Below the pieces are notes generated by a model. That model did no database searches. It saw only the letters and a program-made list of their open reading frames with translations, and was not told the DNA's origin. Source: Fuscovulum ytuae (GTDB lineage: Bacteria; Pseudomonadota; Alphaproteobacteria; Rhodobacterales; Rhodobacteraceae). From it: DNA of 64,000 nucleotides. Positions 4,462 through 29,620 of the stretch are shown here, in pieces. A program made the translations under genes and the position numbers. Every line of letters begins with the position of its first letter. Position 1 is the stretch's first letter. Where the stretch lies: assembly GCF_029953595.1 (NCBI RefSeq), contig NZ_CP124535.1:2450001-2514000 (forward strand), written 5' to 3'.

Positions 4462-5838
4462 GTGAGGCATATGGAACAGTTCCGGGGCGAAATCGCCCCC
4501 AGTTTGGATGATCGTATCCCCATGGCCGCCGAATTGGCGGTGGGCCAGATCAGCCTGATCGATTTCGCGCGCAAGGCCGGGAAGAACATCTTTTCGGTGA
4601 TCCCGGATGCGACGCGAACACAGAAATATCTGCGGGGGCCGGCCAATATTCATTACGTCTGCGACCCAGACATGGTGACAGAACTGCTTGCCGGGGTCGG
4701 GCGCGCCTTTCCCAAATCGAGCTTTACCCGCAATGTCATCGGCCCTGCGGTGGGCAATGGCATGATCCTGTCCGAAGGTGAGAAATGGCGTGAACAGCGC
4801 CACCGCTATGCGCCGCTCTTCGCCGCGCGCAACCTGCCTGTCTTGACCAGCCATTTCGCAGCGACGGGTGAGGAATTGGCATCCTTCTATGCCTCGGCCA
4901 ATGGCGAGGTGGATGTGGCGGATTCCGCGCAAGAGGCGACGCTGACCAATATTTCCCGCGTGATGTTTTCCGGCAATGAAGCGGTGGCGAAGCGGGATAT
5001 CCGCGAAGGGATGCGCCGTTTCACCGACTATATCAGCTATATGTCGCTGTTTGATCTGATGGGGCTGCCAACATGGGTGCCACGGATGAAATGGCTGCGG
5101 TCCAAGCAAGTGATCACCGATGTTCGGCAATTGACGCGCGACGTGATTCAAAGCCGTCAGGCCAAGCGCCACGAAACGGCGGAAGATTTCCTTGATCTGC
5201 TGATCGAAGCGCTGGAAACCGACCGCGAGGATATCGAGACGACGATCGACAATTTGCTGACTTTTGTGGCGGCAGGGTATGAGACATCGGCCAATACGAT
5301 TGCTTGGGCGCTGTATCTGCTGGCGCTTTATCCCGAAGTGCAGGATCGCGTGCGGGATGAGATCAAGACCGTGGCCGGAGAGGCACCGCTGACGCTGGAC
5401 GCCGTGCAGAAGATGCCGCTGCTGCAGGCCCATGTGCGCGAAACGCTTCGCCTTTATCCCGCAGGCGCGCTGTTTGCGCGGGATGCAACGGATACGACAG
5501 AGGTGGGCGGTGTCACCTTCAAGAAGGGCGACGTCATCATGTTCCCGGTCTATTCGCTGCATCGCAACGAATTGCTGTGGGAGGATGCGGATCGGTATCG
5601 TCCGGATCGGTTCATCAACCGCCGCTATCCGCGCGGGCAATACATTCCCTTTGGCGACGGGCCGCGCATCTGTATTGGCGCGCAATATGCCGAGACAGAG
5701 ATCATGGTCCTGATCGGATCGGCGCTGCGTCGGGCCAGCTTTGCCATGACCGAACATCCGGTTCCCGCGCCGAACCTGACCTTCACGATGCGGCCCGGTG
5801 GGCCGATCCTTCTGAAGGCACAGCCAGTAGCGGGTTAG
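4462..5838 (+). CDS. Cytochrome P450
   Basis: This 458-residue protein has the complete P450 signature set: I-helix 'AAGYETSAN' with Glu274-Thr275, the K-helix ExxR motif Glu327-Thr-Leu-Arg330, and the heme-binding loop FGDGPRICIG at 397-406 with the thiolate ligand Cys404. Length and the absence of an N-terminal membrane anchor fit a soluble bacterial monooxygenase that takes electrons from a separate ferredoxin system. No ferredoxin or reductase gene is adjacent. GTG 4462 is taken as start because of the AGGGCAGAG upstream; ATG 4471 would be three residues shorter and is also possible. The gene is convergent with the SRPBCC gene, 4 nt away. The substrate is unknown. Confidence 0.93.
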   Translation: MRHMEQFRGEIAPSLDDRIPMAAELAVGQISLIDFARKAGKNIFSVIPDATRTQKYLRGPANIHYVCDPDMVTELLAGVGRAFPKSSFTRNVIGPAVGNGMILSEGEKWREQRHRYAPLFAARNLPVLTSHFAATGEELASFYASANGEVDVADSAQEATLTNISRVMFSGNEAVAKRDIREGMRRFTDYISYMSLFDLMGLPTWVPRMKWLRSKQVITDVRQLTRDVIQSRQAKRHETAEDFLDLLIEALETDREDIETTIDNLLTFVAAGYETSANTIAWALYLLALYPEVQDRVRDEIKTVAGEAPLTLDAVQKMPLLQAHVRETLRLYPAGALFARDATDTTEVGGVTFKKGDVIMFPVYSLHRNELLWEDADRYRPDRFINRRYPRGQYIPFGDGPRICIGAQYAETEIMVLIGSALRRASFAMTEHPVPAPNLTFTMRPGGPILLKAQPVAG

Positions 5839-7497: not shown

Positions 7498-8499
7498 TCA
7501 GTTCAATACGCTGGCGAGAGTGATTGGTTTGCCTGTCTTCGCCGATTGCGTCGCGGCCTCTGCCATCGCGAGTGCCGCCACGCCGTCGTCCAGCGTCACC
7601 GGCAAGGCGGAGCCTGCGTTCACCGCCGCAACGAAGGCCGCCCATTCCGCCGCATAGGCGGGCATGTAGCGCTCGAGGAAGAAGTAAGTGGGCTTCGCGC
7701 CCGTCACGCCTGCGGTCGTCGACTTGACCACCGTGTTCTCCAGCATGTTCTGCGCCTGCAAGAGCCCTTCGGACCCAAGAAGCTCTACCCTCTGGTCATA
7801 GCCATAGACCGCGCGGCGGCTGTTCTTGATCACGGCGATCCGCCCGTCGGCATAAGTCAGCGTAACCACCGCCGTATCCACATCGCCCGCTTCCCCGATA
7901 GCAGGATCGACGATCGAGGTGCCGACGGCCGAGACGGTGACGGGGGCCGCGCCCATGATGAAGTTCGCCATGTCGAAATCATGGATCATCATGTCGCGAA
8001 ACAGGCCACCCGAGACCTTGATGTAGGCCACCGGCGGCGGCGCGGGGTCGAAGGAGGTGATCGACAGAACCTCGGTCTTGCCGATCTCGCCCCGGTCCGC
8101 TGCGGCCTTGAGGGCCGAGAAGTTCGGGTCAAAGCGGCGGTTGAAGCCGATCATCACCGGCTTGCCGTTCTTGGCCGCCACCTTTTGGCAGGCTTGCGCG
8201 CGGGCGAGGCTCAGGTCCACCGGCTTTTCACAGAGCACCGCCTTGCCCGCGCCCGTTGCCCGTTCGATCAGGTCGGAATGCGTATCGGTCGAGGTGGCGA
8301 TCAGCACCGCGTCGATGGCCGGATCGTTCAGGATGGCATCGGTCGCGCGCGCCTCGGCGCCGTATTGGGTAGCGAGTTTCGCGGCGGCATCGTTGTTGAT
8401 GTCCGACACGGCCACGAGGGTGGATCCGGGATTGGTGGAAATGGCGGTGGCATGGACGCCCGCGATGCGCCCTGCGCCCAGAAGGCCGACTTTCAGCAT
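7498..8499 (-). CDS. iolG: Inositol 2-dehydrogenase-like oxidoreductase (Gfo/Idh/MocA family)
   Basis: This 333-residue enzyme has an N-terminal Rossmann fold (VGLLGAGRIAG from residue 4), the EKP motif with Lys92, and Asp169-x3-His173 in 'RDMMIHDFD'. These correspond to the catalytic Lys/Asp/His of inositol 2-dehydrogenase. It should oxidise a cyclitol or polyol hydroxyl with NAD+. ATG 8499 is chosen because AAGGAA lies six bases upstream. It is the last gene of the minus-strand cluster that starts with the di-iron hydroxylase at 14595. In the rhizopine system the equivalent is MocA. The exact substrate is inferred from context only. Confidence 0.85.
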   Translation of the reverse strand: MLKVGLLGAGRIAGVHATAISTNPGSTLVAVSDINNDAAAKLATQYGAEARATDAILNDPAIDAVLIATSTDTHSDLIERATGAGKAVLCEKPVDLSLARAQACQKVAAKNGKPVMIGFNRRFDPNFSALKAAADRGEIGKTEVLSITSFDPAPPPVAYIKVSGGLFRDMMIHDFDMANFIMGAAPVTVSAVGTSIVDPAIGEAGDVDTAVVTLTYADGRIAVIKNSRRAVYGYDQRVELLGSEGLLQAQNMLENTVVKSTTAGVTGAKPTYFFLERYMPAYAAEWAAFVAAVNAGSALPVTLDDGVAALAMAEAATQSAKTGKPITLASVLN

Positions 8500-8515
8500 G
8501 ATATGTTCCTTGGGG

Positions 8516-9325
8516 TTACTGGCCGAGTCCGGCCTTGAAGGCTTCAAACTCCGCATCTTGCATCGCCACGTTGTGCTGCGGCTGCGGATAGGCACCGGTG
8601 TTCACATCCGCGATGAACTCCTTGAACGCGGCGATGCGTTCGGATTGCAGGCGGGCATATTCGGCAGCGAAGTTGCGGTAGGTCTTAGCGTGGCGCGGCT
8701 TGTGGCCATCCGTACAGCCGAGGACATCCTCGGCGAAGAGGTATTGCGCGTCCGCTCCTGGCCCTGCTCCCATACCAAGCATGATCATGGACGTGTTCTT
8801 CGAAATGAACTCGCCCAGACGGTCTGGCACGACCTCCAGCTCCGCCCCGAAACAGCCGATGGCTTCCAGTTGCTTCACATGGTCCCAGACGGCCCGGGCT
8901 TCGGTCGCGGATTTGCCCACTGCGCGCCAGCCCGTCCATGTGATGTAGGACGGGATAAGGCCGACATGGGCCACGATGGGAACATGGTTGTCGCAAAGCA
9001 CCTTCTGGATGTCCAAGGAGGCCGCGCAATAGAAGCAGTCGCCGCCCATCGCCGTGAATTTGAAGGCCGCGCGCAGGTAGTCCTCGGCGGTGGCGAGTTG
9101 TCCGTAGGGGCCGAAAGGCAGGCCCACCTGCACGAAACAGCGCCCCGCCGCCTCGCGCATCTCGGGGCTGAAGAAGCGGCTTTCGATCGACAGCATGTCG
9201 ATCCCCGCCGCATCCGCCGCCGCCGCCTCTTCCAGCGTGGTGACGTAGAGCATGGAGATCTTCTGCCCACGCGCCTTGATCGCGCGGATGTCGTGGACGG
9301 TCGGGCGGTTGGACTTGTGGACCAT
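8516..9325 (-). CDS. PanB-like (PEP mutase/ketopantoate hydroxymethyltransferase superfamily) TIM-barrel enzyme
   Basis: The 269-residue protein aligns by pattern with ketopantoate hydroxymethyltransferase: 'VPIVAHVGLIPSYIT', 'GAELEVVPDRLGEFI', then 'MLGMGAGPGADAQYLFAEDVLG' (split at GADAQ), matching the PanB motifs AHxGLTPQ, LExVP and GIGAGxxxDGQVLxxxDxLG. However, the PanB segment 'VKLEGG', which supplies a substrate-binding Lys and Glu, is replaced here by 'CFYCAAS', and the metal-site 'GDS' by 'IES'. It is therefore probably not a pantothenate enzyme but a retro-aldol or lyase relative serving this catabolic operon. Start at ATG 9325 is the usual length for the family; its ribosome-binding site is weak. 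Confidence 0.7.
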   Translation of the reverse strand: MVHKSNRPTVHDIRAIKARGQKISMLYVTTLEEAAAADAAGIDMLSIESRFFSPEMREAAGRCFVQVGLPFGPYGQLATAEDYLRAAFKFTAMGGDCFYCAASLDIQKVLCDNHVPIVAHVGLIPSYITWTGWRAVGKSATEARAVWDHVKQLEAIGCFGAELEVVPDRLGEFISKNTSMIMLGMGAGPGADAQYLFAEDVLGCTDGHKPRHAKTYRNFAAEYARLQSERIAAFKEFIADVNTGAYPQPQHNVAMQDAEFEAFKAGLGQ

Positions 9326-9344
9326 GGTTGCACCGTGCCCTTTC

Positions 9345-10118
9345 TTAAACTGTAAACGCTGTGCGGAAGGCTTCGAGGGCAGCCTCCTCATCGCCCTTGG
9401 CAAAAGCCTCCATCGCGACCGAGCCTGTGTAACCCATGCCCTTCAACGCCAGCGCCACGCCACGATAGTTGATCTCTCCCGTTCCCGGTTCGCATCGCCC
9501 CGGATTGTCGGCCACTTGCACCTCGCCGATCCACGGCAGGCAGGCCTGACACCAGCGGATCAGGTCGCCCTCTCCGATCTGGGTGTGGTAGAGGTCGAGG
9601 TTGATGCGAAGCTGCGGGCGGTTGACCGCCGACACCAGCGACAGCACGGCTTCGGTCGAGCCGAAGGGGCAGCCGGGGTGGTCGATGAGGTTGAGGTTTT
9701 CCAAGGTGAAAGTCACGCCCATCTCCTCGGCCAGATCGCAGATGCGGTGCAGCGTGTCGCGGGCGCGCAGTTCCGCCCCCGGCGCATGCGACCCGATGCG
9801 CGGGATTGGGATGCCCATGTCGCCCAGACCCGTGCCGTGCAGGTTCAGGCGATGCACGCCCAGACGCTTGCCCACGGCGGCGGTTTCCCGCGCGGATTTC
9901 AGGAGAATGTCTGCTCCTTCGGCATCCGCCAGACGTCCCTCAAGATAGCCGTTCATGATCGTGAAGGTCGCCCCCGTCCGCTCCAGCGCGGTCAGATCAT
10001 GCGCGGGCCAGTTCCACAGGCCCACGCCGAAGCCCATCTCCTTCAGGCGGGACGCGCGCCAGTCGATGGGGCGGTCGCGCCAGAGCATTTCCGCACAGGT
10101 GGCAAGGGGGAATGTCAT
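9345..10118 (-). CDS. Hydroxypyruvate isomerase-like TIM-barrel protein
   Basis: A 257-residue AP-endonuclease-2 type TIM barrel. 'LGVHRLNLHGTGLG', 'EEMGVTFTLENLNLIDHPG' and 'QLRINLDLYHTQIGEGDL' match the metal-binding Glu and Asp-x-x-His positions of hydroxypyruvate isomerase (Hyi) proteins. MocC of the rhizopine cluster belongs to the same broad isomerase superfamily. It lies 1 nt from the Rieske gene upstream and 19 nt from the PanB-like gene downstream, so it is co-transcribed. It may isomerise or epimerise a ketose intermediate; the substrate is uncertain. Confidence 0.75.
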   Translation of the reverse strand: MTFPLATCAEMLWRDRPIDWRASRLKEMGFGVGLWNWPAHDLTALERTGATFTIMNGYLEGRLADAEGADILLKSARETAAVGKRLGVHRLNLHGTGLGDMGIPIPRIGSHAPGAELRARDTLHRICDLAEEMGVTFTLENLNLIDHPGCPFGSTEAVLSLVSAVNRPQLRINLDLYHTQIGEGDLIRWCQACLPWIGEVQVADNPGRCEPGTGEINYRGVALALKGMGYTGSVAMEAFAKGDEEAALEAFRTAFTV

Positions 10119-10119
10119 C

Positions 10120-10431
10120 TCAGATCTCGATCCAGACTTGGCCGTCCTCGACGCGGACGGGGAAGGTTTTCAGGTTGACGCAGGCGGGCGCGCGCTTCGC
10201 CTCGCCCGTGCGGTAGTCGAAGGTCGCATTGTGCTTGGGGCATTCCACCGTGCCCTCCATCACCAGCCCGTCGCAGAGATGCACCTTCTCGTGGCTGCAG
10301 ATGCCGTCCATCGCGTGGAAGGTGTCGTCCTCGCTGCGGACGATGATGAAGGTCTGGCTGCCGTGGTCGAAGCGGATCAGGTCGTCGAGTTCAATATCGT
10401 CTGTCGCACAGGCGCGGGTCCATGTCGGCAT
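10120..10431 (-). CDS. MocE-type Rieske [2Fe-2S] ferredoxin
   Basis: A 103-residue single-domain Rieske protein. The cluster ligands are visible as Cys45-x-His47 in 'GICSHEKVHLCDG' and Cys64-x2-His67 in 'VECPKHNATFD'. The following 'YRTGEAKRAPACVNLKTFPV' is characteristic of the MocE family from rhizopine catabolism. It should carry electrons to the membrane di-iron hydroxylase encoded at 13579-14595. No dedicated ferredoxin reductase (MocF-like) gene is present in the window, so a housekeeping reductase or a distant gene must serve it. Confidence 0.88.
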   Translation of the reverse strand: MPTWTRACATDDIELDDLIRFDHGSQTFIIVRSEDDTFHAMDGICSHEKVHLCDGLVMEGTVECPKHNATFDYRTGEAKRAPACVNLKTFPVRVEDGQVWIEI

Positions 10432-10465
10432 GGGTCTGTCCTTGGTCTTGGGTCTGTGAGGGAGC

Positions 10466-10528
10466 GGCGGCCCGGGGGAGCTCCGGACCGCCGTTGAAGA
10501 CGCAGGGCGGGTGGAGCGCCGCCCTGCG
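10466..10528 (-). terminator. Two tandem GC hairpins between transporter and enzyme genes
   Basis: Hairpin 1 pairs GGCGGCCCGG (10466-10475) with CCGGACCGCC (10483-10492), one mismatch. Hairpin 2 pairs CGCAGGGCGG (10501-10510) with CCGCCCTGCG (10519-10528) perfectly. No U-run follows. They lie between the ATPase gene and the Rieske gene, and may act as an attenuator or mRNA-stabilising structure rather than a full terminator. Confidence 0.6.
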
Positions 10529-10536
10529 CCGAAAGG

Positions 10537-11358
10537 TCAGCTAGGCGTCACCGGCGGCGGGTGGCCGTCATGGGTCGCCATGTAACCCTCGATCTCCGCC
10601 TCAAGGTTCGCCATCGACGCGCCGCCAGCCATCAGGTCGGTGATCTCTTCCCGCGTCTTCTCGCCCTTGCGGAAATCGGCGGCGACGGCCCCCCGGATCA
10701 GCACGGCGAAGTGGTCGCCCACGGCCATGGCGTGCATCACCTGATGGGTGATGAAGATCACGGCCAACCCGCGCCGCTTCGCCTCGTTCACGATCCGCAG
10801 GACGTGGGTCGCCTGCTTCACGCCAAGCGCGGCGGTCGGTTCGTCCAGGATCAGAACGCGCGCCCCGAAATGCACCGCGCGGGCAATGGCGAGCGACTGC
10901 CGTTCGCCCCCCGACAATCCGCCGACCAGACGGTCACCATCATCAATGCGGGTGATCCCGAAGTCGCGCACGGCCTTGACCGCGATCTCGTTCGCCTTCT
11001 TCCGGTCGTAGATCTTGAACGGCCCCCAGCCCTTTGTCGGTTCGACCCCGATGAAGAAGCTGCGCCCGATGGACATCAGCGGGAAGGTTCCGCCGAACTG
11101 GTGCACCGTCGCGATCCCGCGATCCGACGCATCACGCGGGGTGTCAAAGGCGACGGGCGTGCCGTCCATCAGGATCGTGCCGCTGGTGGGTTTGTGGACC
11201 CCCGACATGATCTTGATGAGCGTCGACTTGCCCGCGCCGTTGTCACCCAGAAGGCAAAGCACCTCGCCCGCATGGACGTTCAGGGTGATGTCATGCAGCA
11301 CGTCGATCGGGCCGAAGGATTTGTTCACGCCTTGCAGCGAAAGGATGGGTGTGGTCAT
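10537..11358 (-). CDS. Sugar ABC transporter ATP-binding protein (single NBD)
   Basis: This 273-residue ATPase has Walker A GDNGAGKST (38-46), a Q-loop read as 'VHQFGG', signature LSGGERQ (148-154) and Walker B VLILDEP (168-174). Its single nucleotide-binding domain differs from RbsA/XylG proteins, which usually have two, and fits the FrcA/short carbohydrate ATPases of alphaproteobacteria. It pairs with the permease 7 nt upstream and the binding protein at 12504-13475 to import the substrate of the rhizopine-like cluster. Confidence 0.9.
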   Translation of the reverse strand: MTTPILSLQGVNKSFGPIDVLHDITLNVHAGEVLCLLGDNGAGKSTLIKIMSGVHKPTSGTILMDGTPVAFDTPRDASDRGIATVHQFGGTFPLMSIGRSFFIGVEPTKGWGPFKIYDRKKANEIAVKAVRDFGITRIDDGDRLVGGLSGGERQSLAIARAVHFGARVLILDEPTAALGVKQATHVLRIVNEAKRRGLAVIFITHQVMHAMAVGDHFAVLIRGAVAADFRKGEKTREEITDLMAGGASMANLEAEIEGYMATHDGHPPPVTPS

Positions 11359-11365
11359 CGCGCCC

Positions 11366-12412
11366 TCACTTCTTCTTCGGGCTGTAGGACAGCGCCATCT
11401 TGCGGAAGGTGTTGTTCATCAGAACCGCCAGCAGAAGCAGCACACCGATGATCAAGGCAGACCAGTTCCGGTCGAAATCGGTGTAGTAGATACCCTGATT
11501 GACGATGGCGAAGGTGATGGTGCCGAAGAAGATGCCGACGACTGATCCAAAACCACCCGTTAGTAGGACACCCCCGACGACCACGGCGATGATGGAGTTG
11601 AAGATGAAGCTTTGCCCACCTGCGACCTGCGCAGAATTGTAAAGGATCGCCTGGCACATCCCGACAAAGGCTGCGGAGGTGGAGGAGAGAACAAACAGCA
11701 GGATCGTCATCCGGTCGGTCGGGATGCCCGCGTTCCGGGCCGAGACTTTGTCGCCCCCCATGGCGAAGATCCAGTTCCCTTTGGGCGAGAGGTGCACGAA
11801 GAACACATAGGCTGCCGTGAGCAGGAGCCACCAGATCACCATGACCTGAAGCTGCCCGCCGAACAGGAAATCCCCGAAGATCACCTTCGCCGGACCCTCC
11901 ACCGTCAGTGCCACACTGGTGGATTTCGTGATCAGCACGGTAAGACCCAGGACGATGCCTTGCACGGCAAACAAGCTGCCCAGCGTCACGATCAGCGAGG
12001 GAACGGCGGTCTTGATCACCATGATGCCGTTGATCAGCCCGACGGTGACGCCGAAGCTGAGCGTGACGGCGATGGCCAGCCAGATCGAGAGGTCGTAGTG
12101 ACCCGCAATCACGGCCACCGTCATCGCCCCGAACGGCACCATCGCGCCGACCGAGATGTCGAGTTCCCCCGCGATCATCAGAAGGCCCACCGGAATGGCG
12201 ATGATGCCAAGGTTGGCGGCCACGTTCAGCCAGCTTGCCATGCCTGCAGGCTTGAGGAAGGTCAGTCCTCCGAAGGCCGCGAAAAAGATGAGAACGGCGA
12301 GAAGGCCCAGAAATGCCCCGGCCTCAGGGCGGCGCAGAAGGCTGCCAATCGACAGACCGGAGCTTCCCGGGGGCGTGGCCTCGACAGGCCGGCGTGCTGT
12401 GGTGGAGGTCAT
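11366..12412 (-). CDS. Sugar ABC transporter permease (RbsC/FrcB type)
   Basis: A 348-residue membrane protein with about ten hydrophobic segments. The conserved 'IIAIPVGLLMIAGELDISVGAM' (split: IIAIPVGLLM, IAGELDISVG) and 'AMGGDKVSARNAGIPTDR' are hallmarks of the branched-chain/ribose permease family (BPD_transp_2). ATG 12412 has AAGGGA upstream; an earlier in-frame start would enter the hairpin region. It works with the ATPase and binding protein of the same operon. Confidence 0.9.
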   Translation of the reverse strand: MTSTTARRPVEATPPGSSGLSIGSLLRRPEAGAFLGLLAVLIFFAAFGGLTFLKPAGMASWLNVAANLGIIAIPVGLLMIAGELDISVGAMVPFGAMTVAVIAGHYDLSIWLAIAVTLSFGVTVGLINGIMVIKTAVPSLIVTLGSLFAVQGIVLGLTVLITKSTSVALTVEGPAKVIFGDFLFGGQLQVMVIWWLLLTAAYVFFVHLSPKGNWIFAMGGDKVSARNAGIPTDRMTILLFVLSSTSAAFVGMCQAILYNSAQVAGGQSFIFNSIIAVVVGGVLLTGGFGSVVGIFFGTITFAIVNQGIYYTDFDRNWSALIIGVLLLLAVLMNNTFRKMALSYSPKKK

Positions 12413-12465
12413 GGCGTTTCCCTTTCCGTCAGACCGAGGATGACGCATGCCGCGTCGGCAGGGAT

Positions 12466-12493
12466 GTCCGGCCCACCGTCAGGCGGGCCGGAC
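12466..12493 (-). terminator. Hairpin between binding-protein and permease genes
   Basis: GTCCGGCCC (12466-12474) pairs perfectly with GGGCCGGAC (12485-12493) across a 10-nt loop. It sits just after the binding-protein gene. Such structures commonly protect the binding-protein mRNA from 3' decay, so that it is made in excess over the permease. Confidence 0.65.
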
Positions 12494-12503
12494 GGTCATC
12501 GGA

Positions 12504-13475
12504 TCAGCGTGCGCCCTTGGCGACACCGGCCAGCGTGGCCTCGATGTTGGACGCATCCACGATCCCGGGCCCGGTCAGGACCGGGAAGACCGGCAGATCC
12601 GTGCCGAAGTCGATATGCGAGGCCAGCAGGCTGACGGCGAGGTAGGATTGCAGGTAGGGCTGCTGGTCAATGGCGAAGAGTTGCGTGCCGCCCTTGATCC
12701 GGTCGAGCCCCGCCTGGTTCATGTCGAAGGAGCCGAGCTTCACTGTCTCGGTCTTCCCGGCCTGCTGCACCGCGATGGCCGCACTGTCGGCATCGCCCGC
12801 CGAGATGGTAATGACGCCGTCGATCGTCTCGTCCTTCAGAAGCTCGGCCTTGATCGCCTCGGCCACCGCCGTCGCATCGCCAAAGCTGGTCGAGGGCAGC
12901 GGAAGCTGCGCGCCCGTGCCGCCCTTGCCCGTGATACCGTCGATCACGCCCTTGCAGCGGGCCTCGATATTCGCGGTGCCGGGCAGGGTGTTGATGCACA
13001 GCACGTTCTTCTGGCCATTGTCTCCGAAGTATTCGCCACCCGCGACACCGGCCACATATTCATCCGACCCGACATAGTTGATCGCGCCCAGTTCGCGCGC
13101 TTTCTCGGCCCCGCCCGCGTTCATCAGGATGACCTTGATCCCTGCCGCGATGGCGTCCTTGATCGCCGGGTCCTGTGCCTCCGGAACCCAGTTCGGGATG
13201 ACCAGACCATCCACTTCCATGCTGATCGCCGTGCGGATCAGCTGCACCACATCGGGGGCGAAGTTGTCATAGTTCACAAGGCGCAGGTAGTTCACCGAAC
13301 CGCCATTCGCTTCGACCGCCGGGGTCGCATCGTCGATCCCCTTCTTGATGATGTTCCAGAAGGCGTCATCGTTCGATCCGCCCACGACGGCAATATCCGC
13401 CGCCATAGAGGCGCTGCCCGCGAAGGCGACAAGCGCGGTCGTGGCAAGAACCTTGGTCAGGTTTGCAAGTTTCAT
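12504..13475 (-). CDS. Periplasmic sugar-binding protein (MocB/RbsB type)
   Basis: A 323-residue protein with a Sec signal peptide (MKLANLTKVLATTALVAF, cleavage near ASMA-AD). The mature part follows the Peripla_BP_4 pattern: 'AVVGGSNDDAFWNIIKKG', 'VDGLVIPNWVP', 'GSDEYVAGVAGG' and 'FDMNQAGLDRIKGG'. It should capture a sugar or cyclitol in the periplasm; in the rhizopine cluster this position is held by MocB. ATG 13475 follows a GGGAGGA box. It is the first transporter gene of the operon, downstream of the di-iron hydroxylase. Confidence 0.88.
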   Translation of the reverse strand: MKLANLTKVLATTALVAFAGSASMAADIAVVGGSNDDAFWNIIKKGIDDATPAVEANGGSVNYLRLVNYDNFAPDVVQLIRTAISMEVDGLVIPNWVPEAQDPAIKDAIAAGIKVILMNAGGAEKARELGAINYVGSDEYVAGVAGGEYFGDNGQKNVLCINTLPGTANIEARCKGVIDGITGKGGTGAQLPLPSTSFGDATAVAEAIKAELLKDETIDGVITISAGDADSAAIAVQQAGKTETVKLGSFDMNQAGLDRIKGGTQLFAIDQQPYLQSYLAVSLLASHIDFGTDLPVFPVLTGPGIVDASNIEATLAGVAKGAR

Positions 13476-13536
13476 GGTCTGTCCTCCCTTGGTGCCCCCG
13501 GTTCCTCCGGTGGGCGTTGACGTTGGTGGGATTTGA

Positions 13537-13569
13537 CCGGCGCGCGCCCTCCTCCGGGTCACGCGCCGG
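13537..13569 (-). terminator. Hairpin between hydroxylase and binding-protein genes
   Basis: CCGGCGCG (13537-13544) pairs with CGCGCCGG (13562-13569) around a 17-nt loop. No T-run follows on the minus strand. It is the first of a series of hairpins that separate the parts of this operon. Confidence 0.45.
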
Positions 13570-13578
13570 ATCGCGGGC

Positions 13579-14595
13579 TCAGGTGCGGGCCGCCTTGGCG
13601 TTCATCCGCGCCTTCTTCTTTTCAAAGCGGGCCTGCATCATCGCATCGCCCTCTTTGGAACCGTCGTGCCAGTAGCCGAACCACTTATCGAGCGGGATCA
13701 GCCCGTCGCCGCCGTAGTTCACCTCGAAATACTTGTGGTGCAGGTAATGGGCATAGGCGTGGCTATCGATGGCGGTGCCCTCAGTGACCTCAAGCTTGTC
13801 AAATCCGATATGCCCATTCACCGCGCCGAACCCGGCAATGTGCAGCTGGAACATGGCGATGATCGGGTTCGACGGGATGATCAGGTGCCAGAAGGCCACG
13901 GCATGGTAGAGGAACCCTTCTACCGGATGCATCGACAGCGACGACCAAGGGCTCGGGTTGACCGAGTTGTGGTGTACCGAATGCACCCATTTGTAGAGCA
14001 GCGGCGTATGGATCAGCCGGTGGATCGCGAAGAAATGCACCTCGTGGATCGCAGGTGCCAGCAGGACCAGCGCCGCCAGATACCACGGATTGTCTGACCA
14101 GCTCAGCCACGGCACATAGCCGGCAGCGAAAGCGTGCAGGAACAGCACCTCGACCAGTGTCCAAAGCGGGATCGAGATGAAGAAGGACCGCAGGAAGTTG
14201 TCAATGTTCTGCGACTTGAACCAGAACACGTCCGACGGCTGCTCGCTGGGGAATTTGGCGTTGTATTTGAACCGCGTTCCCTGCTTGCGGCGGACATACC
14301 AGAACAGCTCCACCGAGCCATACATGACGAAGATCGCGGCAGCGTTCACGACATAGAGCCAGAGCGCCCAACCCCAGGACAGGGTTTTCATCACCTCGAC
14401 ATCCGGCACGACGTAGAACCAGTAAAGCAGCGCGGTCGCCATGTGGAACGCATTCCACGGGAACAGATATTCCGGCACCCAGCGCAGCACCCGCAGGATG
14501 CTGAACGGGCGCAGCCAGAACGGAGCCACTTCCAGATGCGCGTTCGGTGCCCAGTCTCCACGCTTGTTGCGGGTGCCGAATTGCAGATCGTCCAT
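13579..14595 (-). CDS. Membrane di-iron hydroxylase/desaturase (sterol desaturase/fatty acid hydroxylase superfamily)
   Basis: This 338-residue membrane protein carries the histidine clusters of the superfamily: His174-x2-His177 and His182-x3-His186 ('AIHEVHFFAIHRLIH'), His195-x2-His198-His199 ('HSVHH') and His269/273/276/277 ('SHAYAHYLHHKYF'). These bind a di-iron site that activates O2. It is the first gene of the minus-strand cluster, with an AGGAAGGA site before ATG 14595, and divergent from lacI. With the Rieske ferredoxin at 10120 it would form an oxygenase; by analogy with MocD/MocE, an O-demethylation or hydroxylation of the imported compound is likely. It is of a different family from rhizobial MocD, so this is inference. 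Confidence 0.85.
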   Translation of the reverse strand: MDDLQFGTRNKRGDWAPNAHLEVAPFWLRPFSILRVLRWVPEYLFPWNAFHMATALLYWFYVVPDVEVMKTLSWGWALWLYVVNAAAIFVMYGSVELFWYVRRKQGTRFKYNAKFPSEQPSDVFWFKSQNIDNFLRSFFISIPLWTLVEVLFLHAFAAGYVPWLSWSDNPWYLAALVLLAPAIHEVHFFAIHRLIHTPLLYKWVHSVHHNSVNPSPWSSLSMHPVEGFLYHAVAFWHLIIPSNPIIAMFQLHIAGFGAVNGHIGFDKLEVTEGTAIDSHAYAHYLHHKYFEVNYGGDGLIPLDKWFGYWHDGSKEGDAMMQARFEKKKARMNAKAART

Positions 14596-14819
14596 CTTCG
14601 TCCTTCCTCTTCCCTTCGCTCAGAGGGACGGACAGCATGTGGCATCGTCCCGCGGGACAGATCCCGAGGCACCGGGGCACGCAGCGCCCCGCCGTCAGCT
14701 TTCCGATAACTCCCTCCGCGCGGCGGTTGGGACTCAGGGTCCGCTTCCGCCGTGATGGCGGGAAATAAGCGCCTTGACGCATATCAAATCAACCCACCAT
14801 GATAGCGGAAACATGAAAA

Positions 14820-14856
14820 CGTATCATTCGTCTCAATGATGCGAAAAAATGATACG
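14820..14856. promoter_or_regulatory. Inverted-repeat operator in the hydroxylase/lacI divergent promoter
   Basis: CGTATCATT (14820-14828) is followed after 6 nt by AATGATGCG (14835-14843, one mismatch to a perfect dyad) and again by AATGATACG (14848-14856, exact reverse complement). Three half-sites in the gap between a LacI-family gene and the operon it faces are the expected target of that regulator. Confidence 0.65.
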
Positions 14857-14873
14857 AACAGGATCATCGCAAC

Positions 14874-15896
14874 ATGCGCCGCCCGACCATCCCCGACCTC
14901 GCCGAAGCCGCAGGCGTCTCCATTGCCACGGTCAACCGCGTCCTCTCCGGCGCAGGCAACGTCCGCCTCGCCACCCGCGAACGGGTGCAACAGGCCGCCG
15001 AGGAAATTGGGTTCTACGGTCTCGGCAGCATACAGGCCCGCGTCTCGGCGGCCCGTCCGAAACTCCGCTTCGGCGTCCTGCTCCTCCAACCCCATCGCCC
15101 CTTCTACCGCAACATTGCAAGCGCCATGGAAGAAGCCGCCACCAATGCTGCGGGCGCGGAAATCGAGTTGCGGATCGAGTTCCTTGAGGACCTCTCGCCG
15201 CAGAACGTTGCCGATCGCGCCCTCGCACTGGCCGAGGATTGCCATGCCATCTGCCTGACAGCCGCTGTCCACCCCGTCGTGACCGAGGCGCTTGAACGCA
15301 TCCAGTCAAGAGGCATCCCGGTCTTCGCCTTCGTCTCGCAGATCAGCGTCACAGGGCAGATGTCCTATATCGGACTCGACAACTGGAAGGTCGGTCGCAC
15401 TTCGGCTTGGACCTTTGCCAACATCTGCAAGGCGCCCGGAAAGATCGGCATCCTGATGGGCAACCCGCGCTACCGGAACCAAGAGATGAATGAGACGGGC
15501 TTCCGCTCCTACTTCCGCGAGCACGCGCCGGATTTCACCCTGCTCGAACCCATCTCCACCTTCGAATCCGCCGCCGTCGCGCAGGAGATGACAGAGAAGC
15601 TATTGGCCGAGCACCCGGACCTTGCTGGGCTATATATCTCAGGCGGTGGGATTTCGGGCGCATTGTCCGCCCTGCGCGCCAGCGGACGGGCGGGGCAGAT
15701 GGTCGTCGTCGGCTACGACCTGACCGAAGTCACCCGGGCGGCCCTGCTTGACGGCACAATGACCCTTGTCATCTCCCATCCCCTCGCCCGCCTTGCCCGC
15801 GACGCGATCGACGGCATGATCCGCGCTTGCAGCTCTCCCGGGAGCAACCAGACGAGCATCGCTCCGTTTGAAATCTACACACGCGAAAACATCTAG
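14874..15896 (+). CDS. LacI-family transcriptional regulator
   Basis: This 340-residue protein has the N-terminal LacI helix-turn-helix 'TIPDLAEAAGVSIATVNRVL' (residues 5-24) and a Peripla_BP_4-like sensor with 'GVLLLQPHRPFYRNIASAMEE' (split at NIASA), 'YIGLDNWKVGRTSA', 'GNPRYRNQEMNETGFRSYF' and 'GLYISGGGISGAL'. It should repress or activate the divergent hydroxylase/ABC/iolG operon in response to its substrate. ATG 14874 has AGGAT about ten bases upstream. Autoregulation is likely given the shared intergenic operator. Confidence 0.92.
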   Translation: MRRPTIPDLAEAAGVSIATVNRVLSGAGNVRLATRERVQQAAEEIGFYGLGSIQARVSAARPKLRFGVLLLQPHRPFYRNIASAMEEAATNAAGAEIELRIEFLEDLSPQNVADRALALAEDCHAICLTAAVHPVVTEALERIQSRGIPVFAFVSQISVTGQMSYIGLDNWKVGRTSAWTFANICKAPGKIGILMGNPRYRNQEMNETGFRSYFREHAPDFTLLEPISTFESAAVAQEMTEKLLAEHPDLAGLYISGGGISGALSALRASGRAGQMVVVGYDLTEVTRAALLDGTMTLVISHPLARLARDAIDGMIRACSSPGSNQTSIAPFEIYTRENI

Positions 15897-15970: not shown

Positions 15971-17041
15971 TCAAAGAAGCAGGCGCTTCCCTGTTGGCGG
16001 AAACTCGCGGAGCATCGGAGGACGGATTCCCGTACGGAAAGGCCGGGGTTCGAGGCGGACCGTCTCGCCGGTGCGCGCCGCCTCGTCGATGGCCAGAAGT
16101 GCGCGCATGTCCGCATTGCCTTCCTCTCCATCTGCTTCCGGCGGGGTTCGCGCCGCGATGCAGTCGGAGAAATAGGCGATCTGGCCAGCGAAATGGTCGA
16201 CCTGATCGAAGGTCGTTACCGTCTCTCCCGTCTCTTCGCGGACGGTCAGGCGAAGAGCGGAGTCGAATTTGAAAGCAGGGTCGAGGATCAGCTCCCCGGT
16301 TGAGCCGACGACGCGGATCGACTCCGATGTGCCTGACCCGAAGGAGCAGAAGAACTGTGCGAGACGCTCGTCGGGAAACTTCAGGGTGACCGCCAGACCC
16401 GCATCAATCTCGACAAACCGCGGATCACCCGCAGTGCGGCTGGCCATGGCCTGCACAGCGATCGGTTCGGCCGCGAAGATATGGCGGGCGGCGTTGAGGC
16501 AATACACCCCGACATCCGGCAGGGCCCCGCCCCAATGACCGGCCTTCAGGCGATGGTTTCCAAGCTGCGATTGGAATCCGAAGGTGGAGGCGAAATAGAC
16601 TGGGTCGCCGATCCTGCCGGAACGGACGGCCTCGATCATGCCATGCGTGCCGGGCTCGTTATGCAGGCGATAGGCGGTCATCAGGAAGGCACCGCTTTCC
16701 CGTGCCGCCGCGATCATCGCCTCGCTTTCGGCAAGCGTCGTTGCCAGAGGTTTTTCGACCATCACATGCTTTCCGGCCCGCAGGGCGCGGATGGTGTAGT
16801 CCGCATGCATGGAATTCGGCAGCGCGATGTAGACCGCGTCGATCCGGTCGCTGGCCAGCAACGCGTCATAGCCGTCATAGGCCACAACCTCCGGCACAGC
16901 GTGAAATTCGGCAAGCTTGCCCGCCGCGTCACGACTGCCCGAGACGATGGCCTGCATGCGGGAATTCCCGGTCAGGGCAACCGCAGGCATGAAGGCTTCT
17001 TGCGAAATCCAGCCCGCGCCGACGACGGCGTATCGTATCAT
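15971..17041 (-). CDS. Gfo/Idh/MocA family oxidoreductase
   Basis: A 356-residue NAD(P)-dependent oxidoreductase. The Rossmann motif is 'AVVGAGWIS' (5-13) and the EKP motif is in 'HVMVEKPLA' with Lys97. The C-terminal domain has 'GGALPDVGVYCLNAARHIF', closer to glucose-fructose oxidoreductase-like members than to IolG. ATG 17041 follows an AGGGGAT box five bases away. It is the last gene of the xylose-type transporter operon (46 nt from the ATPase gene), suggesting it oxidises the imported sugar. Confidence 0.85.
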   Translation of the reverse strand: MIRYAVVGAGWISQEAFMPAVALTGNSRMQAIVSGSRDAAGKLAEFHAVPEVVAYDGYDALLASDRIDAVYIALPNSMHADYTIRALRAGKHVMVEKPLATTLAESEAMIAAARESGAFLMTAYRLHNEPGTHGMIEAVRSGRIGDPVYFASTFGFQSQLGNHRLKAGHWGGALPDVGVYCLNAARHIFAAEPIAVQAMASRTAGDPRFVEIDAGLAVTLKFPDERLAQFFCSFGSGTSESIRVVGSTGELILDPAFKFDSALRLTVREETGETVTTFDQVDHFAGQIAYFSDCIAARTPPEADGEEGNADMRALLAIDEAARTGETVRLEPRPFRTGIRPPMLREFPPTGKRLLL

Positions 17042-17087
17042 GGTAATCCCCTGAAGATGTGCGTGGATGCGCCCGAAGGCGCATCCC

Positions 17088-17849
17088 TCAGGCCGCAAGA
17101 TGGGCCGGTTTCTTGCCGAGGATAATCATCCCCAGAATGTCGTCATCGGTCACTTCGTTCACGTTGACTGTGCCAACCAGTTGGCCGTTCTTCATCACCG
17201 ATGCCCGGTCGCAGAGCTTCATCACATTGTGGATGTCATGCTCGATCAGGAAGATCCCAAGTCCCTGCGCTTTCAGCTCCTCGATCAGTTCGGCCACCAT
17301 CTGCGTCTCGTGCGGGCCGAGGGCGGCGGTGGGTTCGTCCATGATTAGGATCTTGGCATTGAAATACACGGCGCGTGCGATGGCGACCGACTGGCGCTGA
17401 CCGCCGGACAGTGCGGACACCGCCACATTGAATTTGCGGAAGTTGGGATTGAGCCGACCCATGATCTTTCGGGTCTCCGCTTCCATCTTCGCGTCGTTCA
17501 CCAAGCCGTGCGACATGATCTCCCGCCCGAGGAACAGGTTCGATGCGGCGTCAAGGTTGTCGGCCAGCGCAAGCGTCTGGTAGATCGTCTCAATGTTCAG
17601 AGCACGGGCGTCGCGGGGGTTCTTGATCTCGACCTTCTCGCCATTGATCAGGATGTCCCCGTGATCCGCCTGATAGGCCCCGGCAAGGATCTTGATCAGC
17701 GTCGACTTGCCCGCACCGTTGTGACCCAGAAGACCGACCACTTCACCGGGGTAGAGGTCGATCGAGACATGATCCACCGCCTTGATCCCGCCGAAGGAGA
17801 TCGAGATGTCGCGCATCTCGACAAGCGGAGTGCGTCCTGCATTGCTCAT
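17088..17849 (-). CDS. Sugar ABC transporter ATP-binding protein (XylG-like, single NBD)
   Basis: 253 residues with Walker [10 protein letters not shown] (42-50), signature LSGGQRQ (147-153) and Walker B ILIMDEP (167-173). A single nucleotide-binding domain, like the first transporter's ATPase in this window. The start overlaps the permease stop by 4 nt, indicating translational coupling. It energises the permease at 17846-19147. Confidence 0.9.
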
Positions 17850-19147
17850 TTCGTCAGCCCCATGCGCTTGCGATAGATGATGTCCACCCAGACGGCGATC
17901 ACGAGGACGAGGCCCACGACAACGTTCTGAAATGGCGTGTCGACGCCAACCATGGCCATCCCCGACTGCAACGACTGCATGATCAGCGCACCGAGAACCG
18001 CGCCATAGATCGTGCCCACGCCGCCCGCCAGCGCAGTGCCACCGATCACGGCCGCCGCGATGACGCGGAGTTCTTCCAGCATGCCGATGTCATTGCCGTG
18101 GCTCTGTAGACGCGCCTGCGCGATCAGGGCGGCAAGCGCACAGAGGAAACCCATCAGCGCGAAAATCTTGACGGTCAGGGCCCGGGTGTTGATGCCCGAC
18201 AGTTCCGCCGCGTCGGGATTTCCGCCGGCCGCGAAGATGTAGCGGCCGAAGCGCGACTTGCGTGCGATCACCGTCATGCCGACCGCGACAACGATCAGGA
18301 TGATGACCGAGATCGGAAGACCGTGCATGGCGGTATAGCCTTCGGGCATGACCTCGCCTCGCGCCTCGAAAAGCCGCTTCAGCTTTGTCTCGGGGACCGG
18401 ATAGCGGGAAAGCCACGTCACGAAGAACATGATGGCCCCGACAACGAGCGCCATCATGACGCCTTCGGCCCAGCGCGGCTTCACCACAAACCCATGGCTC
18501 AGCTTGTTCTTGCGCGCGGAATAGAGCGCCGCCACCGCTGCGATCGAGGCGACGACACCAAGGATCATGCTGACCGGTGCCCCGAGAACCCCTTCGGTGC
18601 CACCGAACATGAGGAGGTTCGGGTCCGTCAGGGACACGGACTGACCGTTGGTGGTATACCAGTTCACGTTGCGCCAGACGAACAGGCCACCGAGCGTCAC
18701 GATGAAGGACGGGATTTTCTGGTAGCCGACCAGCCAGCCGGTCAGCGCTCCCATGCCCGTTCCGACGAGGAAACCGACAGCAATGGTCACGAACAGGATC
18801 ACCGGGCTGCCATATTCAAGCCCGAGCATCGTCGGCAGCCAATAAGCCTGGCTCATCGCCATGACGGCGGAACACATGGCCAGCATGGAGCCGACGGAAA
18901 GGTCGATATGCCGGGCGACGATCACAAAGACCATGCCACAGGCCATGATTGCCACGGGAACGGCCTGAACAGAGATGTTGAAGACGTTGCGCGGACTGAC
19001 GAACGTGCCGCCCGTCCAGATGGTGAAGACAATCGCGATCGCGGCGAAGGCCACCAGCATCCCGAGAAGCCGGACATCCAGTTCCAGCGTATCGACGATA
19101 CTGCGCTTCGGCGCGGGCGCAGCGACGGCCTGCCCTGTGTCAGTCAT
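17846..19147 (-). CDS. Sugar ABC transporter permease (XylH-like)
   Basis: At 433 residues it is longer than RbsC proteins and matches the XylH size class, with an extra central hydrophilic/hydrophobic insert ('[20 protein letters not shown]'). Family signatures '[18 protein letters not shown]' and '[18 protein letters not shown]' are clear. About twelve membrane segments can be drawn. It sits between the binding protein and ATPase genes of one operon. Confidence 0.9.
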
Positions 19148-19197
19148 GTGGTTCCCTCCCCTCGGGCCGAGGTGCGTGCCGACCCGTTCGTAATTGC

Positions 19198-19224
19198 GCG
19201 GCGTCCCGATGACCGGGACGCCGC
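19198..19224 (-). terminator. Perfect hairpin between binding-protein and permease genes
   Basis: GCGGCGTCCCG (19198-19208) pairs perfectly with CGGGACGCCGC (19214-19224) around the loop ATGAC. No T-run follows. It lies 18 nt after the binding-protein stop, in the same place as the hairpin of the first transporter, and likely sets a higher level of binding protein than permease. Confidence 0.75.
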
Positions 19225-19242
19225 AGGTCTTAGCTTACCGCG

Positions 19243-20268
19243 TTATTCGCAGACGGCGACGCCGCCCGTGACACCGGCGCAAAGCGTTTCCTTGGTGATC
19301 CAGCCCGCATCCAGGACGACGTTCAGGTTGTCCTTGGTGATCGGAACGGGCTTCAGCAGCACCGAGTTCAGTTCCTTGCCACCGGGCGAGGTGAACTTGG
19401 CCGACCCTTCGATGGCGTCCATCGCGGTGCCGCTCGCCAGAGCCACGGCGATCTCGCCGGCGGCCTTGCCGAGCGCGCGGCTGTCTTTCCACACCGAAAC
19501 GGTCTGGGTGCCGAGAGCCACGCGGTTCAGTGCGGCCATGTCGCCGTCCTGACCCGAAACCGGGATACCGGCCATGCCCTGAGCGGTCAGCGCTGCCACG
19601 ACGCCACCGGCGGTGCCGTCGTTCGAGGCGACGACAGCGTCAACGCCGTTGTCGGTCTGGGTCAGGATCTGCTCCATATTTTTCTGGGCGTTCGCAGGCT
19701 GCCAGTCTTCGGTGTAGGCTTCGCCGACGATAGTGATGTCACCGGCGTCGAGCGCAGCCTGCAGGACCTCTTGCTGACCACCGCGCAGGAAGTCCGCGTT
19801 CGGGTCGACGGGCGAGCCTTTGATCATGACGTAGCGGCCCTTCGGCATCGCCTTCAGCACTTCACGAGCCTGCATGCGACCCACTTCGACGTTGTCGAAG
19901 GTCAGGTAGAAGGCACGCGGATCGTCGATCATGCGGTCATAGCCGACGACCGGGATACCGGCGTCTTCGGCTGCGTCCAGAGCCGGCCCGATGGAAGCCG
20001 AGTCTTGCGCCAGGATGATCAGGGACGAGCAGCCCTGCGTGATCATGCCTTCGATGTCAGCCAGCTGCTTCGAGGCCGAGGTCTGAGCGTCCGCCGAGAT
20101 ATATTCCGCACCGGCCGCATCCAGAGCGCCCTTGATCGCCGCCTCGTCCGTCTTCCAGCGCTCTTCGCGGAAGTTCGACCAGCTCACACAGACTTTGAGA
20201 TCCGCCGCCGAGGCCGCGGAGGTGAAGCTCGCAACCGCGACGGAAGCAAGCAGCAGGGTCTTTTTCAT
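19243..20268 (-). CDS. Periplasmic sugar-binding protein (XylF-like)
   Basis: This 341-residue protein has a Sec signal (MKKTLLLASVAVASFTSAAS, cleavage near ASA-AD). The mature part resembles D-xylose-binding XylF: 'VSWSNFREERWKTDEAAIKG', 'GCSSLIILAQDSASIGPALD', 'VGYDRMIDDPRAFYLTFDN' and 'VSGQDGDMAALNRVALGTQT'. Xylose is the family's usual ligand, but the neighbouring genes are oxidoreductases and isomerases rather than xylA/xylB, so another pentose or polyol is possible. ATG 20268 has a GGAGGAAT box six bases upstream. Confidence 0.88.
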   Translation of the reverse strand: MKKTLLLASVAVASFTSAASAADLKVCVSWSNFREERWKTDEAAIKGALDAAGAEYISADAQTSASKQLADIEGMITQGCSSLIILAQDSASIGPALDAAEDAGIPVVGYDRMIDDPRAFYLTFDNVEVGRMQAREVLKAMPKGRYVMIKGSPVDPNADFLRGGQQEVLQAALDAGDITIVGEAYTEDWQPANAQKNMEQILTQTDNGVDAVVASNDGTAGGVVAALTAQGMAGIPVSGQDGDMAALNRVALGTQTVSVWKDSRALGKAAGEIAVALASGTAMDAIEGSAKFTSPGGKELNSVLLKPVPITKDNLNVVLDAGWITKETLCAGVTGGVAVCE

Positions 20269-20351
20269 TCGTATTCCTCCCATGGAATCACCGGCACCTT
20301 CGGCCGGCTGGCGGTCTTCGCCTGCAATCATGAAATGCGCTTACCATTCAT

Positions 20352-24381: not shown

Positions 24382-25190
24382 CAGTAGGCCCCCTTCTCGG
24401 TCTTGGTCGAAAAGCCATCCGTCAGCTTGCGGAAGCCCGCCACTGCAGCCCCTGCCGCCGCGGCCAGAAAGCGCGAGTCACCCCCGACCGTCGTCATATC
24501 GAACCCCCAGCCGATGGCGCGCGCCGCGTAGTCCGGCGTCCCGCAATGAAGCGCGGCGCGGATACCGTTCTTGTTGCAGGCGGCGACGATGGTTTGCAGG
24601 GCCGCGATCATCTCCGGCTCCTCGCGATCGAAACCGGGGGCAAGGCGGCCTGTGGTCAAGGACAGGGTCAGGTCGGCAGGGCCGACATAGATCCCGTCCA
24701 GTCCCGGCGTCGCGGCGATGGCGTCCAGATTTGCCATCCCTTCCGCCGTTTCGATCATGGCGAAGGCAAGCATGTTGTCATTCGCCTCGCCCGCGTAATT
24801 CGCGCCGGCGGCAAAGGAAACACGCGTCGGGCCGAAGCTGCGCTGCCCGTGTGGCGGATAGCGCATGTAGCTCACGAACCGCGCCGCATCCTCGGCACTG
24901 TTCACCATTGGGCAGATGATGCCATAGGCACCCGCATCCAGCGCCTTCATGATGATCCCGGGCTCCAGCCACGGCACGCGGGCCAACAGGACCGCTCCGC
25001 TTGCCCGCATCGCCTGGAACATCGGCAAGACGGCGGAGTAGTCGAGCGCGCCGTGCTGCATGTCGATTGTGACGCTATCGAACCCCTGCGCCGCCATGAT
25101 CTCAGCCGTGAAGGGATTGCCGATGCTGCACCAGCCGTTGATCGTCGGCTTTCCTTCGGCCCATAGGGCCTTGAGCTTGTTCGGGATCAT
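24381..25190 (-). CDS. HpcH/HpaI-type class II aldolase
   Basis: 269 residues with the family's residues visible: His46 ('DMQHG'), Arg71 ('LLARVPW'), Glu147 ('AMIETAEGM') and Asp173 ('YVGPADL'). Related enzymes cleave 2-keto-3-deoxy sugar acids or 4-hydroxy-2-oxo acids into pyruvate and an aldehyde, using a divalent metal. ATG 25190 gives the usual ATGA overlap with the aldehyde dehydrogenase stop; a GTG at 25196 is less likely. The aldehyde dehydrogenase gene upstream would oxidise the aldehyde product. Confidence 0.88.
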   Translation of the reverse strand: MIPNKLKALWAEGKPTINGWCSIGNPFTAEIMAAQGFDSVTIDMQHGALDYSAVLPMFQAMRASGAVLLARVPWLEPGIIMKALDAGAYGIICPMVNSAEDAARFVSYMRYPPHGQRSFGPTRVSFAAGANYAGEANDNMLAFAMIETAEGMANLDAIAATPGLDGIYVGPADLTLSLTTGRLAPGFDREEPEMIAALQTIVAACNKNGIRAALHCGTPDYAARAIGWGFDMTTVGGDSRFLAAAAGAAVAGFRKLTDGFSTKTEKGAY

Positions 25191-29612: not shown

Positions 29613-29620
29613 GAAGACAA

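Follow-up and report, generated by a model that had tools for sequence, protein, structure and literature searches.

The catabolic system closest to the locus described here is that of rhizopine, whose mocABRC and mocDEF units are known from Sinorhizobium meliloti L5-30 and Rhizobium leguminosarum. MocD has been placed among the membrane fatty-acid desaturases, with scyllo-inosamine given as its product from 3-O-methyl-scyllo-inosamine (PMC2593844), and the known moc units are described in PMC10107442. We have analyzed a window of 64,000 nucleotides from the alphaproteobacterium Fuscovulum ytuae (contig NZ_CP124535.1, positions 2,450,001 to 2,514,000; source genome of 4.19 Mb in three contigs), in which an operon at window positions 7498-15896 combines a sugar or cyclitol importer, a membrane di-iron-type hydroxylase, a MocE-family ferredoxin and a protein related to PanB. 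Judging from its sequence, the operon probably performs the oxidative demethylation of a cyclitol. Our searches of the open-access literature found no description of the operon or of the PanB-like enzyme in demethylation, and no bacterial genes for methyl-cyclitol demethylation besides those for rhizopine. As far as these searches show, the operon is an undescribed variant of moc-type demethylation, as an earlier note on this DNA had suspected.

Named enzymes of the sterol desaturase / fatty acid hydroxylase superfamily (PF04116), to which the hydroxylase belongs, act mostly on lipids or carotenoids. One enzyme of this superfamily, alkylglycerol monooxygenase, is eukaryotic, acts on ether lipids and cleaves the ether through a hemiacetal; to our knowledge, it occurs without a sugar transporter. 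PanB normally transfers a formaldehyde unit between methylene-tetrahydrofolate and a 2-oxo acid, and PanB proteins (PF02548 and TIGR00222; PDB entries 1m3u, 3vav and 1oy0) are the closest solved relatives of the PanB-like protein by both sequence and fold. The condensation of formaldehyde with tetrahydrofolate (THF) is called spontaneous in PMC8879981, which names Fae and Gfa for tetrahydromethanopterin and glutathione, respectively. The PanB-like protein is likened to Fae and Gfa by its proposed role only, the capture of formaldehyde by a carrier cofactor; no homology is claimed, and its proposed carrier, unlike theirs, is THF.

The operon region comprises nine genes, all of them long open frames. 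Eight lie on the minus strand, beginning with the hydroxylase (13579-14595), which scores 62.3 bits against PF04116 (cut-off 31). It is followed by a CUT2-type periplasmic binding protein of about 323 amino acids resembling rhizopine-binding proteins (12504-13475; PF13407, Peripla_BP_4), whose start is probably the ATG at 13475 within the open reading frame 12504-13562, and by an ATP-binding cassette (ABC) permease (11366-12448, start possibly at 12412; PF02653, BPD_transp_2). The ABC ATPase (10537-11358) has 273 amino acids and one nucleotide-binding domain, matched by PF00005 in a single stretch, yet the models that it matches best describe sugar ATPases about 500 amino acids long. Next come the MocE-family Rieske 2Fe-2S ferredoxin (10120-10431; TIGR02377, 154.8 bits against a cut-off of 136.15), the proposed electron donor of the hydroxylase, and a Hyi-like triosephosphate isomerase (TIM) barrel (9345-10118; PF01261, AP_endonuc_2), a proposed isomerase or epimerase that falls under the cut-off for every NCBIfam equivalog listed. 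The PanB-like gene (8516-9325, probable start ATG 9325; PF02548, Pantoate_transf, 124.5 bits against 28.7) encodes the proposed formaldehyde-to-THF enzyme, and the last gene encodes the myo-inositol 2-dehydrogenase IolG (7498-8499, probable start ATG 8499; TIGR04380, 425.5 bits against 355). A LacI-family regulator (14874-15896; PF00356) is transcribed divergently on the plus strand. The minus-strand genes are closely spaced: two of the junctions span at most 7 bp and the largest gap is about 105 bp, and a single transcript of all eight is therefore likely. The earlier note had given this order, from the hydroxylase to IolG with a divergent LacI, had placed the hydroxylase in the sterol desaturase superfamily, and had pointed to its His clusters and to the Cys/His ligands of the Rieske protein; open frames and curated families agree with it, and C-x-H and C-x2-H pairs are readable in the ferredoxin.

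The operon shares with moc a binding protein, a Gfo/Idh dehydrogenase, a membrane oxygenase with a MocE-family ferredoxin that scores above the TIGR02377 cut-off, and a link to the inositol pathway. Some of its relatives also share a reductase with moc, whereas the window operon has no MocF-type reductase in the locus. The oxygenase of the operon matches PF04116 only, in contrast to the fatty-acid-desaturase type of moc, and its regulator is LacI rather than MocR. The operon further differs in having its own permease and ATPase and an added PanB-like gene. Among curated models, its binding protein comes nearest to NF052284, that of the rhizopine binding protein, at 162.7 bits, below the cut-off of 420; the top PDB match is 4ru1, a structure reportedly solved with myo-inositol.

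The substrate, the demethylation chemistry and the THF role proposed here draw on the gene content, protein families, conservation, PanB-site residue changes and partner counts that we report. The CUT2 ABC transporter would import a cyclitol carrying an O-methyl group, such as ononitol, sequoyitol, bornesitol or pinitol. NAD(P)H would supply electrons that reach the MocE-family protein by way of an unlinked ferredoxin reductase and from there the membrane hydroxylase, which would hydroxylate the O-methyl carbon to give a hemiacetal that splits into the free cyclitol and formaldehyde. IolG would then oxidize the cyclitol to an inosose, which the Hyi-like TIM barrel would epimerize or isomerize, and the inositol pathway, represented in the window by IolE and IolD, would complete the breakdown. 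The PanB-like protein would take up the formaldehyde set free, or directly the hydroxymethyl group, and attach it to THF to give 5,10-methylene-THF, which FolD and PurU would oxidize to formate where their genes are present. Import, demethylation and a one-carbon role for the PanB-like protein together form the explanation that we favor, with modest confidence; for the one-carbon/THF role of the PanB-like protein taken by itself, the sequence evidence leaves the chances a little short of even.

Conservation of the operon was examined in the best 80 of 563 hydroxylase relatives among the matches listed (596 stretches); locus counts are raw, and kinship between loci is ignored throughout. Within the fetched flanks of these 80 loci, matches to LacI were found in 73, to the ATPase in 68, to MocE in 67, to the binding protein and the permease in 64 each, to the PanB-like protein in 53, to the Hyi-like protein in 52 and to IolG in 49, so that the pairing of a sterol-desaturase-type hydroxylase with MocE, first noticed in the window, held up across the neighborhoods. 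Under stricter identity limits, IolG was present in 30 of the 80 loci and a second Gfo/Idh protein (Gfo2), whose nearest model is an inositol/chiro-inositol dehydrogenase, below cut-off, in 18. The complete eight-gene order is kept in 21 loci and spans Rhodobacterales, Rhizobium, Shinella, Ensifer, Labrys and Mesorhizobium; loci with the hydroxylase, MocE, the ABC transporter and LacI include the same groups together with Rhodoferax and Leptothrix. The closest named relative of the hydroxylase among the matches listed is that of Rhodobacter amnigenus HSP-20, at 97% identity. Counted from the matches listed, hydroxylases of at least 53% identity occur in 24 of 295 genomes of the family, that of F. 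ytuae included, and 15 of these 24 carry a PanB-like match no more than about 13 kb away on the hydroxylase contig; in a sample of 289 genomes from the class, hydroxylases this close turned up outside the family in 2. The gene grouping is more than chance.

Paralogues of the hydroxylase served as controls. Around 20 distant PF04116 paralogues (33-38% identity), there were no MocE, MocD-like, PurU or FolD matches, no PanB-like match of at least 33% identity, and one ferredoxin reductase. Among 19 loci of intermediate paralogues (35-48%), MocE, PanB-like and MocD-like matches occurred once each, all three in the same locus (L262), with one FolD and no PurU. These counts indicate that the link to the partner genes is mainly a property of the close clade and not of the hydroxylase superfamily. 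A variant was seen in rhizobia (L123, L126-L128 and L131-L134), where the hydroxylase stands, in most cases, with MocE, another sugar-binding protein, a ferredoxin reductase and a different TIM barrel; no matches to the binding protein of the window type or to the PanB-like protein were found in these loci.

Genes for electron transfer and one-carbon metabolism were labeled by similarity to one reference protein each (ferredoxin reductase, PurU, FolD and MocD-like); of one reductase, one PurU and one FolD checked against curated models, PurU and FolD scored above the cut-off and the reductase below. A ferredoxin reductase occurs in the flanks of 21 of the 80 hydroxylase loci, PurU in 10 (12 at a looser E-value) and FolD in 4. 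If about one PurU per genome of 4-6 Mb is assumed, far fewer than one would be expected in 80 stretches, a rough estimate given that the loci are related. In locus L068, hydroxylase, binding protein, permease, ATPase, MocE, Hyi-like, PanB-like, IolG, ferredoxin reductase, FolD and PurU genes follow one another on one strand. In addition, two loci on one 119-kb contig (L215 and L216) appear to form an operon that runs across the contig ends, with the hydroxylase near the last bases and genes for the binding protein, ATPase, MocE, Hyi, ferredoxin reductase, PanB-like protein, FolD, PurU and IolG from the first bases onward; this contig may be a circular plasmid. The only ferredoxin reductase of this family in the F. 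ytuae genome shares 40% identity and is unlinked, lying outside the window. The view that the reductase is missing thus holds for the window locus, which has none, and fails for the system as a whole.

The PanB-like protein has 269 amino acids, and its structure model (mean predicted local distance difference test, pLDDT, 87.3) has PanB chains as all of its best 28 Foldseek matches in the PDB, the best at an E-value of 1.3e-17. Against the PanB equivalog TIGR00222, it scores 80.9 and 79.4 bits, far below the cut-off of 207.55. We rejected its identification as the pantothenate gene because a genuine PanB is encoded elsewhere in the genome. Residues were compared in an alignment of 104 rows that left out matches with fewer than 230 aligned residues, with stops, or in duplicate. 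All 104 rows keep the His and the Glu that correspond to His136 and Glu181 of E. coli PanB. In E. coli PanB, on whose active-site residues a literature search yielded nothing of use, we take Asp84, Lys112 and Glu114, in a numbering also presumed, to bind the metal and the 2-oxo acid. The position aligned with Asp84 is Gly in 97 rows, that aligned with Lys112 is Tyr in 96, and that aligned with Glu114 is Ala in 60 and Ser in 31; the positions were also compared in a profile alignment. A protein that has lost the residues for the 2-oxo acid and the metal but kept the general base could still perform the THF half of the PanB reaction. A quick tree was built from 64 of 91 PanB-like rows, the window protein and 18 of 30 genuine PanB sequences; the 91-row set had left out matches shorter than 215 residues or with a stop. 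In this tree the PanB-like rows form a clade separate from genuine PanB, split off by a branch of 3.6 changes per column with a support of 100, and one of the 64 (L275_761_28) falls on the genuine-PanB side.

The separate clade also occurs beside other oxygenases. Twenty PanB-like loci were hand-picked from 82 rows for having no hydroxylase match of the PF04116 operon type close by, and 15 of them are included in the 91-row set. MocE was found in 17 of the 20, as was a MocD-like protein, a label that here means a member of the FA_desaturase superfamily beside MocE, assigned with no MocD sequence in the comparison; L189, L190 and L191 lack it. One checked MocD-like member is PF00487, and the MocD-like proteins have only weak NCBIfam desaturase matches, below cut-off. 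A MocD-like gene is also present in 5 of the 80 hydroxylase loci, whose own PF04116 partner labels arise by selection, since these loci were chosen by the hydroxylase. At least five changes on the PanB-like tree are needed to switch between the two di-iron partner types. One of the MocD-like loci (L195, C1:2822000-2840000) lies in the F. ytuae genome itself, where MocD-like, MocE and PanB-like genes stand beside another sugar ABC transporter and a LacI gene, a third demethylase-like module of this genome. In L190 and L191, MocE and PanB-like genes adjoin genes for an NAD-linked formate dehydrogenase, the alpha subunit of which scores 952.6 bits in L190 against TIGR01591 (cut-off 666.25), and L190 also has PurU. 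A MocD-like gene adjoins the PanB-like gene in two 1.4-Mb genomes of one genus (L269 and L270, loci of 30-32% guanine plus cytosine, GC), and in a low-GC genome of 1.6 Mb (L262, 4375-10000) two MocD-like genes, a reductase (31%), MocE, PanB-like and PF04116 genes form one run. Remoter PanB-like genes lie near PhyH dioxygenases (L272, L278, L279, and L273 with a MocD-like gene too), and that of L243 lies near a Rieske oxygenase (nearest model GbcA, below cut-off) and a PF04116 gene. MocD-like, PhyH and Rieske oxygenases are each a plausible source of methyl-derived formaldehyde, and the company that the clade keeps points to one-carbon handling. The PanB-like gene had first been taken as an enzyme added to this one operon; the gene is indeed there, but that view was too narrow. 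The earlier interpretation of the operon was therefore right in kind, and fell short on this point and on the reductase.

Several observations count against the explanation that we favor. No PurU scored above cut-off in the F. ytuae genome, and the loci with FolD and PurU are a minority and partly close relatives. Twenty-seven of the 80 hydroxylase loci lack a PanB-like match, as do the 34 kb around the second copy of the module in the F. ytuae genome (L004, described below), which means that the PanB-like protein is not obligatory; 9 of the 24 family genomes likewise have no nearby PanB-like match at an E-value of 1e-40. Conversely, 14 of the 91 PanB-like rows have no fatty acid hydroxylase-, MocD- or PhyH-like neighbor by similarity. 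Some of these lie at the end of a contig, and PhyH is present by Pfam in L278 and L279, but in L190, L191, one row of L275, L284 and L286 no oxygenase was found in more than 8 kb to either side. Among the 20 control loci, two (L243 and L245) have a PanB-like neighbor at 29-31% identity, which leaves the association without a sharp outer limit. In the tree, 32 of 80 inner branches are unsettled, and a Foldseek search of the hydroxylase model against the PDB returned nothing at an E-value of 0.001 or better.

The alternative that survives best gives the PanB-like protein a role in carbon-skeleton chemistry unrelated to folate, in which it would serve as aldolase or isomerase for a 2-oxo intermediate of cyclitol breakdown. 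The PanB fold and the invariant residues aligned with His136 and Glu181 would suit such a reaction, and the gene often stands between the Hyi-like gene and IolG. It tracks oxygenases and MocE, however, across clusters that differ in their dehydrogenases and TIM barrels, and the positions aligned with Asp84, Lys112 and Glu114 have become Gly, Tyr and mostly Ala or Ser. We regard a carbon-skeleton role as unlikely, though it deserves more weight than the other alternatives below.

The hydroxylase carries invariant HxxxH, HxxHH and HxxHH motifs; His192, 196, 205, 208, 209, 223, 262, 283, 286 and 287 do not vary in either of two alignments, one of 27 relatives and one of 32. Its structure model (pLDDT 81.8) has several long helices, and its sequence has a single PDB match, at an E-value of 0.96. 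Such helices, together with the lipid and carotenoid substrates of most named PF04116 enzymes, could suit a hydroxylase that adds oxygen to a sugar or cyclitol at a ring or deoxy carbon without demethylation, or one that acts on a lipid or carotenoid as a mere neighbor. The repeated company of a sugar ABC importer, LacI, IolG or Gfo proteins and THF genes argues against both forms, as do the 20 distant-paralogue loci devoid of MocE, MocD-like, PurU and FolD genes, and we consider the idea improbable. In particular, a lipid or carotenoid hydroxylase present by chance was rejected on the recurring partners in the 80 loci and the paralogue control. A decayed third copy of the hydroxylase, 34 residues with 50% identity to its C-terminus (residues 298-331), was seen at window positions 60440-60541 on the plus strand, with no full hydroxylase gene around it among the matches.

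The reading of the operon as a sugar or cyclitol importer with a di-iron-type hydroxylase and a MocE ferredoxin, made at the outset, is supported by the families and by the inositol context. A separate cluster in the window encodes a second IolG (26626-27633, minus strand; TIGR04380, 412.3 bits against 355), IolD (27759-29612, plus strand; TIGR04377, 816.6 against 715), which would be expected downstream on the demethylated cyclitol, and the inosose dehydratase IolE (29609-30514, plus strand; TIGR04379, 382.5 against 290). The operon is flanked directly by IolD in L076 and by IolD and IolE in L100. The same genome carries the module a second time on a 120-kb plasmid contig (L004, 12703-18177), where identity to the window proteins is 88% for the ATPase, 83% for MocE, 69% for the permease, 57% for the hydroxylase and 56% for the binding protein, and the nearest model of its dehydrogenase is an inositol/chiro-inositol dehydrogenase, below cut-off. 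Conservation of the ATPase and MocE with divergence of the parts expected to contact the substrate would fit different methyl-cyclitols. Methylated cyclitols are described as a major share of the carbohydrate in many plants (PMC5889025), and pinitol as the component with the highest concentration among those measured in root exudate of Mimosa (PMC5789663). A "fatty acid hydroxylase" of Mimosa symbionts, from the same source, was considered and set aside because it is described there with a nod box and less than 40% identity to the orthologues of other bacteria (PMC5789663).

Rhizopine itself or another aminocyclitol as the substrate, with the operon as a non-homologous replacement of mocDEF, is suggested by the moc-like layout, the MocE-family ferredoxin and a binding protein whose nearest curated model is that for rhizopine, but it is not supported and very doubtful, given the different oxygenase superfamily, a binding-protein score of 163 bits against 420, LacI instead of MocR, an IolG of the myo-inositol type, and several hosts recorded as pond or water Rhodobacterales, where a nodule compound would be less likely.

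Control of the operon may involve a candidate operator in the divergent intergenic region (14820-14858), made of TTCG[TC]ATCATT repeats in both orientations. It was recognized from a shared 8-mer, AATGATAC, which 16 of 25 upstream regions contain on one strand or the other; a palindrome scan for a LacI operator found none in the window within the limits used, only the shared repeats. Adjoining the LacI gene are a second sugar ABC transporter (binding protein, permease and ATPase) and a Gfo/Idh dehydrogenase (15971-20331, minus strand), and the operon neighbors in Gemmobacter aquatilis (L059) resemble this set. The IolG/IolD/IolE cluster adjoins genes for two Gfo/Idh proteins, a 2-hydroxyacid dehydrogenase, an HpaI/GarL-type aldolase and an aldehyde dehydrogenase (21315-26626, minus strand), and a cytochrome P450 lies near the operon (4462-5838, plus strand; PF00067, 252 bits).

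Beyond the window, we tentatively propose that the PanB-like clade is an undescribed THF-dependent, formaldehyde-capturing family that serves several unrelated types of oxidative demethylase in alphaproteobacteria, a proposal that we hold at somewhat less than even strength. The demethylases of this putative family would be of the PF04116, MocD-like di-iron, PhyH and Rieske types, its hosts would range from rhizobia to low-GC genomes of 1.4-1.6 Mb, and the window operon would be a case in which methyl-cyclitols serve as both carbon and one-carbon source. If the role proposed for the PanB-like protein is true, it would supply an enzyme for a step that has been reviewed as spontaneous, the condensation of formaldehyde with THF (PMC8879981), and annotators would gain a marker of oxidative demethylation where "panB" would otherwise be written.

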